Virus record (IMG/VR): IMGVR_UViG_3300023184_000191
Coordinates: 1 to 49,223 of that record
Direction: 5' to 3' (one strand)
Source: a virus
DNA length: 49,223 nt
A program made the position numbers and the translations under genes. This document shows, in pieces, positions 1,818-2,756 of this stretch. Within the stretch, counting starts at the first letter, position 1. Every line of letters starts with the position of its first letter. Below the pieces are notes generated by a model. That model was given only the letters and a program-made list of their open reading frames with translations, searched no databases and had not been told where the DNA came from.

Positions 1818-2756
1818 AAGTGGCGCACTGAGAATACATGCTAACCCAACAACACCTCGAGCATTATTACAAGCCTTGCGAGCTTGCTTTCTCTCGACTT
1901 CCACCAAGACCATATTGCTATGTATCCCAGTCTGCTGTCAGCATCGCCGTTTTTAAAGACAGGCAGTAGTCTTGTCGTTGTATGCTATTCTACGCCATCT
2001 ATCCCGTTGACCTTTAGAGCCATTCACAGTCGCTAAACTGTTACGAAACTTCCAGCATAAACAGATTTCACCTTGCGAGTTACGTCTGACTTGATTACCT
2101 TGCGGCCCAAGTATTAGATGCTTTTCACACACAACCGAGTCAGTCTTTGCTTTTTTAATCGTTAATTGGATTTGAACCAATAGTCGACTCCTTCATATGG
2201 AGTTGCGTTACCATTACGCTATAACAACCTACTGCGATGTGCTGACTCTGTTGCTGAATACTCTTTTGGAATACCCAATACAACACACCACGTACCTTTG
2301 GTCTTGCGGACTACTCAGTCGTCTTTTGCGATCTGTGTTGCCCCGCCAGTTTCCCGACAGCCCCACTGACCACTCAAACTGCGATACCGCCCTTGACTGC
2401 AACATCTCGGACTATACCACTACCCTTTCCCATACCAATTAACTGGACTGGTTTAGTTGTGAAGTCAGCACCACCTGTTACTTTCCACTGACCCAAGTTC
2501 CCATTGATGCAATCTCAGGCTTGTCGGCCAACGTTCTTTCCACAACATCCAGCGTCATTGTTACCTCCACCGGTCTTATCAGTGAAGGGACTCTCACGAG
2601 TCTGAGCAGGCTTGCATAGTTGGACCATTGCTGGCGCAGGCGTGTAGGACGCTTGTGCTTTGGCTACCTCGCGGCAGTTATCCTAAAGAGGCTATGCCCC
2701 CAAATCCTTAAACAAATAATTTGTTATCATTTGTTTAGGGACTTTGTTTTTAACAT
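1818..2756 (-). ncRNA. candidate large structured RNA with embedded tRNA-like unit
   Basis: About 940 nt with no convincing gene on either strand but many local stems on the minus strand. A 9-bp hairpin (2709-2717/2729-2737) lies near the predicted start. Two GNRA-capped hairpins follow: CTACC/GGCAG at 2664-2677 (loop GCGA on the minus strand) and GACTC/GAGTC at 2589-2602 (loop GUGA). The motif GTGGAAAG occurs twice.

A promoter at 2763-2791 points into it and a CCA-less tRNA-like unit sits at 2157-2228. Large phage RNAs such as GOLLD and ROOL are known to lie beside or around tRNAs; membership is inference. Boundaries are approximate. Confidence 0.45.
2157..2228 (-). tRNA. tRNA-like unit, anticodon AUG, no CCA
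   Basis: A complete cloverleaf can be drawn: acceptor GTTGTTA/TAACGAT with two G-U pairs, D arm GCG/CGC, a perfect ACTCC/GGAGT anticodon stem, loop ATATGAA, and T arm ATTGG-TTCAAAT-CCAAT.

It differs from every other tRNA here: no CCA is encoded, the discriminator would be T, and the anticodon AUG (nominally His) is almost never used. A normal tRNA-His lies at 3005-3082. It may be a decayed tRNA or a tRNA-like domain of the surrounding RNA. Confidence 0.55.

Follow-up and report, generated by a model that had tools for sequence, protein, structure and literature searches.

The cryo-EM structure of the env-38 GOLLD RNA is a closed 14-mer cage with the linker inside (PMC12286853). Palindromic kissing loops are used in this structure, elsewhere than in the linker, and its authors remark that GOLLD linkers sometimes hold tRNAs (PMC12286853). 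Binding of ribosomes by GOLLD in pull-downs is reported in work that this paper cites. A pseudo-tRNA lies inside a mycobacterial GOLLD and gave no detectable expression or product (PMC6582537); from this report and the remark of the cryo-EM authors, the presence of tRNAs in GOLLD linkers is already known. In Lactobacillus brevis, a GOLLD was reportedly dispensable for phage production (PMC7567579). Phage tRNAs evading anticodon nucleases have also been described, with an arms race over anticodon loops (PMC10264068).

The locus analyzed here resembles env-38 in its full-length Rfam match, its 5' and 3' domains, its phage origin, its adjacent tRNAs and a variable linker between conserved flanks; it differs in that the env-38 linker is 42 nt long and disordered (PMC12286853), whereas the linker of our clade holds a conserved tRNA-like unit. 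What we regard as new is this clade-wide unit, which resembles a tRNA mimic and not a tRNA; the pattern of tRNAs in linkers may be found in part in earlier GOLLD papers (Morgado et al., Weinberg et al.).

A GOLLD RNA with its own promoter in a viral tRNA array

The window, i.e. the whole stretch of DNA analyzed, is the IMG/VR virus record IMGVR_UViG_3300023184_000191 (49,223 bases, positions 1 to 49,223). Its DNA polymerase is most similar to the enzymes of two jumbo phages, Phosso (51% identity) and Atu_ph07 (48%), and several GOLLD relatives of the same clade are carried, one GOLLD each, by contigs of 212-364 kb. The window is a virus fragment, and this kinship and these contig sizes make a jumbo phage its likely source. 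Its first 4.5 kb is occupied by a minus-strand tRNA array, which contains, according to ARAGORN, 15 tRNAs besides the embedded unit considered below, including tRNA-Asn, two tRNA-Lys and tRNA-His(gtg). The GOLLD is embedded within this array, with tRNA-Met on its 3' side. The features are:

2763..2791, minus strand: sigma-70 promoter of the GOLLD RNA, TTGACA-17-AATAAT (consensus matches; relatives against shuffles)
1825..2757, minus strand: GOLLD RNA, both ends predicted (Rfam, conservation and fold)
2292..2757, minus strand: GOLLD 5' domain, which caps the half-shell of the cage in the published structure (conserved in 74 relatives; not in the Rfam model)
1825..2291, minus strand: GOLLD 3' domain, Rfam RF02032 over its full length (Rfam)
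1715..1819, minus strand: long hairpin directly 3' of GOLLD, before tRNA-Met (-35 kcal/mol for 1701-1830)

The original prediction had proposed at this place a large RNA region of about 940 nt, led by a promoter at 2763-2791, rich in GNRA-capped hairpins, devoid of a credible gene and possibly linked to GOLLD. The full RF02032 model (1-416) matches window positions 1825-2291 (-) with 187.7 bits (E 2e-51), well clear of the 150 bits that Rfam sets as gathering threshold. The 5' half, 2292-2757 (-), lies outside the Rfam model, yet is conserved across 74 aligned relatives. A less conserved 5' domain precedes the 3' domain, as in GOLLD RNAs, and the total would be about 933 nt, over the 800 nt expected of them, with a start near 2757 and an end near 1825. 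Conservation in the alignment starts abruptly at the promoter hexamers and runs through the 5' domain (2757-2292) into the 3' domain; upstream of the promoter none was found as far as the preceding tRNA. The promoter consists of TTGACA (2791-2786), a 17-nt spacer and TG preceding AATAAT (2768-2763), i.e. 11 of 12 matches. At least 10 of 12 matches are present in 56 of 73 aligned relatives, compared to 11 of 1460 shuffled segments, and among these 73 we counted TTGACA in 50, TACAAT or TATAAT in 47 and a 17-nt spacer in 59.

The minus strand of the GOLLD interval carries six GNRA hairpins whose stems have 4 bp or more, for a shuffle mean of 0.94 (0 of 500 shuffles reach six), and the same count on the opposite strand gave none. 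The fold of the interval (934 nt, -293 kcal/mol) has a z of -3.0 versus shuffles. No credible gene was found inside, the ORFs fully within the interval having at most 81 aa, and a protein-coding reading was rejected. Since the promoter is conserved, the GNRA hairpins are enriched, the fold beats shuffles and Rfam matches, the guess of a GOLLD was right, and a GOLLD RNA, about 933 nt long, is encoded here with its own promoter. Phage origin and nearby tRNA genes agree with this identity; the GOLLD relatives likewise have tRNA neighbours on the same strand, and often a tmRNA close by.

Other elements of the neighbourhood were recorded. The hairpin at 1715-1819 is a possible processing site. It is resembled by hairpins at 206-283, 3086-3185 and 4441-4530 (-23 to -38 kcal/mol), which have AAACACAC/GTGTGTTT-type arms, bridge adjacent tRNA genes and are possibly processing stems. 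An inverted repeat next to tRNA-Asp (3874-4028) has perfectly matched arms of 21 bp and a loop of 113 nt. A permuted tmRNA (8856-9341, minus strand, tag ANDEQFALAA) is located near the GOLLD and the array, and permuted or standard tmRNAs also occur near GOLLD in L252, L316, L328, L329, L346 and L347. Pfam identified a GTP cyclohydrolase I (26321-27064) and a 6-pyruvoyl tetrahydropterin synthase (24393-24926), while a 281-aa protein (19956-20801) without Pfam match reads like QueE; the genes of 19956-27064 may form a 7-deazaguanine pathway that serves to modify DNA. Two further Pfam matches are unusual phage cargo: a TctC-type periplasmic binding protein (6529-7419) and a ferritin/Dps-like protein (44865-45308).

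The tRNA-like unit of the linker

A CCA-less tRNA-like cloverleaf had also been predicted in the region, and the annotation tools agree: ARAGORN calls it at 2156-2229 (-), with the label His(atg), Rfam scores it as tRNA with 61.2 bits, and it is followed by UUAAAAAAGC, without CCA. His decoding by AUG was considered for the unit and rejected. As in other GOLLDs, the unit sits in the linker; its position is exactly that of the linker, with the first 3'-domain helix on one side and the conserved AAAAAGCAAAG stretch on the other. Its parts are:

2157..2228, minus strand: tRNA-like unit in the GOLLD linker (ARAGORN, Rfam, cloverleaf fit)
2222..2225, minus strand: 5' strand (GUUA) of the four conserved proximal acceptor pairs (clade pairing, RNAalifold)
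2161..2164, minus strand: 3' strand (UAAC) of the same four pairs (clade pairing, RNAalifold)
2192..2198, minus strand: anticodon loop AUAUGAA; C/A-U-N-N-U-A-A in 63 of 65 tree units (linker comparison, tree)

The main sample of linkers was obtained with the pattern GCAAAGACTGNCTCGGT, just 3' of the linker and with no selection for a tRNA. It comprises at least 119 viral stretches, four of which (L011, L092, L099, L104) are chance matches; at least 111 linkers, including those of the window and Phosso, have enough upstream sequence and represent 68 unique units. Among the matches listed, a cloverleaf could be fitted to at least 105 of the 111 with a score that 0.4% of shuffled linkers attain, and 98 of the 111 outscore all 555 shuffles. 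The remaining linkers look like degenerate versions, the weakest of which (L044) is no better than chance by cloverleaf score.

In the 55 unique canonical units among the matches listed, pairing reaches 96-100% in the D, anticodon and T stems and at the four proximal acceptor positions, with many different pair types, whereas acceptor pair 1:72 is present in 40%, 2:71 in 55% and 3:70 in 45%. Because the cloverleaf fit favours pairing, it slightly overstates the stems; what was found for the distal acceptor runs opposite to this bias. When 3' flanks were permuted among units, the proximal acceptor (217 of 220 paired) clearly exceeded expectation (161 +/- 5), and the distal acceptor showed no excess (77 of 165 for 89 expected). 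RNAalifold independently gave a cloverleaf with a four-pair acceptor only. For comparison, among the matches listed, all three distal pairs are present in 93% of 1135 unique array tRNAs, and CCA is encoded in 97% of these versus 0% of the linker units of the same loci. A second sample, collected via a 5'-domain motif and scored with the distal pairs ignored (24 usable loci; 3 without anchor, left unjudged), yielded 96% proximal pairing, 44% distal pairing and CCA in 0 of 13 unique units. In one subclade the D and T arms are partly lost while the anticodon arm is still perfect.

Two properties of functional phage tRNAs are therefore absent from these units: a selected seven-pair acceptor, as judged on the 55 unique units (the window copy, taken alone and unlike the clade pattern, can form all seven pairs), and a CCA encoded as in the array tRNAs. 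These comparisons show that the linker unit is a tRNA-like fold under selection, in which the acceptor has four pairs, CCA is lacking and the anticodon loop is constrained. Excision of the unit as a tRNA, which the original prediction implied, is unsupported, because across the clade the acceptor-stem end is not maintained and CCA is never encoded.

Units of other GOLLDs were also considered. Those of Sinorhizobium phage Phosso, phage DSS3_MAL1 and Phaeobacter phage MD18 occupy the same linker position, with a truncated acceptor stem and a U36-A37-A38 loop, and differ by their UCU anticodon and, in MAL1 and MD18, by G33. GOLLD was confirmed in DSS3_MAL1 and MD18, and their UCU units have a four-pair acceptor. 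The GOLLDs known from Mycobacterium tRNA arrays and from cluster M phages (PMC6582537; L328, L329) are likewise near tmRNA, in a tRNA array and with a degenerate linker tRNA; their units differ, that of prophiGD54-2 keeping a 4-5 bp acceptor stem and that of Bongo having no clear one. Read by eye, acceptor stems are short or missing in Bongo, prophiGD54-2 and L316, whereas L242 and L252 keep about six pairs. Acceptor truncation is thus common outside the clade, not universal. The L252 unit has an 8-nt anticodon loop, and the L316 unit a TCA anticodon, which would read UGA. Broader motif scans added a small number of further GOLLD clades, and in some of them (L245, L258, L263, L248) the linker holds no unit; since a tRNA is absent from the linkers of several clades, a GOLLD as such does not require the mimic. 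Matches of a second motif scan (AAAGNTGTAATCTCAG) failed the GOLLD profile and were discarded as mostly chance. The motif search of plasmids gave no match, and GOLLD was looked for and not found in Atu_ph07, CBB, XbC2 and Vibrio phage 2.275.

Anticodon loop and origin of the units

On the GOLLD 3'-domain tree, where stem changes are compensated, parsimony gave 0 changes at position 33, 18 at 34, 5 at 35, 1 at 36, 1 at 37 and 0 at 38. Position 34 varies freely, U33, U36, A37 and A38 are nearly fixed, and UUAA occupies positions 35-38 in 58 of 65 tree units; U36 is strongly favoured without being absolute, as the second sample adds a few exceptions. Recombination could inflate these change counts. 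Most units have Asn- and Lys-type anticodons, a bias that may partly be a founder effect. The window loop, AUAUGAA, is an outlier in the clade. The L100 unit is identical to that of the window except for three changes, all within the anticodon loop, while the 3' bodies of the two RNAs are only 71% identical.

The unit cores have a mean identity of 0.93 to the nearest other linker unit versus 0.73 to the nearest array tRNA, and a tree of units and array tRNAs requires 3 label transitions versus 47 when shuffled. A freshly captured array tRNA was rejected on this separate clustering. By these sequence measures, the linker units are a resident lineage of their own, not repeated captures.

Possible roles of the linker units

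As a whole, we lean towards a GOLLD cage presenting non-charged tRNA mimics to a recognising factor. That the unit is a non-chargeable mimic is very probable from its conservation; that the anticodon arm is the part recognised is an evenly balanced proposition. By analogy with the cryo-EM of the other GOLLD, the RNA would form a 14-mer cage, and because the 14 linkers lie inside that cage the mimics would do so too. The conservation pattern is consistent with a unit that would remain covalently attached to GOLLD, not aminoacylated, and would show its tRNA body and anticodon arm to the recognising factor, suggesting that the cage displays tRNA mimics rather than releasing tRNAs. Our preferred guess for the reader is a host protein for ANN-type, mostly Asn/Lys-like, anticodon arms, e.g. 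an anticodon nuclease, in which case the cage would be a decoy or sink. A decoy for an anticodon-targeting host factor would fit the loop pattern and the arms race described for phage tRNAs (PMC10264068). Those tRNAs resemble the linker units in an evolution focused on the anticodon loop; they are proposed to be functional and cleavage-resistant, whereas the linker units look non-chargeable (PMC10264068). The decoy proposal for the clade, with 14 lumen mimics trapping a host tRNA-targeting nuclease or other anticodon-reading factor and the loop evolving to track it, is speculative and rather unlikely, and we are equally doubtful of a decoy for a nuclease specifically, the host nuclease being hypothetical here. 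We count against the favoured reading as a whole the seven acceptor pairs and outlier loop of the window unit, and the L. brevis phage production that reportedly proceeds without need for a GOLLD (PMC7567579).

It is less likely that the unit serves in the architecture of the cage, with anticodon loops from two chains kissing in the lumen. The UUAA of the 58 units is self-complementary, the window loop has CAUAUG, and palindromic kissing loops occur in other parts of the published GOLLD; yet the palindrome is broken without compensation in UCU, UGU and GAU units, the published structure has a disordered linker (PMC12286853), and many GOLLDs have no such unit. A tether for the ribosome (e.g. 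at AAN codons) or for another tRNA-binding translation part, by which GOLLD would capture ribosomes, is improbable: it would agree with the ribosomes reportedly recovered in the pull-downs cited in PMC12286853 and with the adjoining tRNAs and, often, tmRNA, but without a full acceptor and CCA the contacts would be limited to the anticodon side. Still less credible is a functional tRNA, cut from the GOLLD transcript, given its CCA by a host enzyme and decoding codons. Both ARAGORN and Rfam call a tRNA and seven acceptor pairs are possible in the window unit; against this, distal pairs in the clade form no more often than by chance and no unit encodes CCA, when array tRNAs have both, position 34 swaps freely among Asn-, Lys- and other anticodons on near-identical bodies, the array already supplies tRNA-Asn, two tRNA-Lys and tRNA-His(gtg), and the mycobacterial pseudo-tRNA has no detectable product (PMC6582537). 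A decaying relic of a tRNA gene inserted in the linker, suggested by D- or T-arm features lost in some subclades, was rejected as very improbable, stem pairing being kept through many compensatory changes and the loop being conserved.

For the display of tRNA mimics by the cage, which we favour, the picture of linker tRNAs as possible cargo would give way to another one, and the question would no longer be the identity of a delivered tRNA but the nature of the factor that reads the mimic. The cultured phages that carry the unit (Phosso, DSS3_MAL1 and MD18) put this idea within experimental reach.
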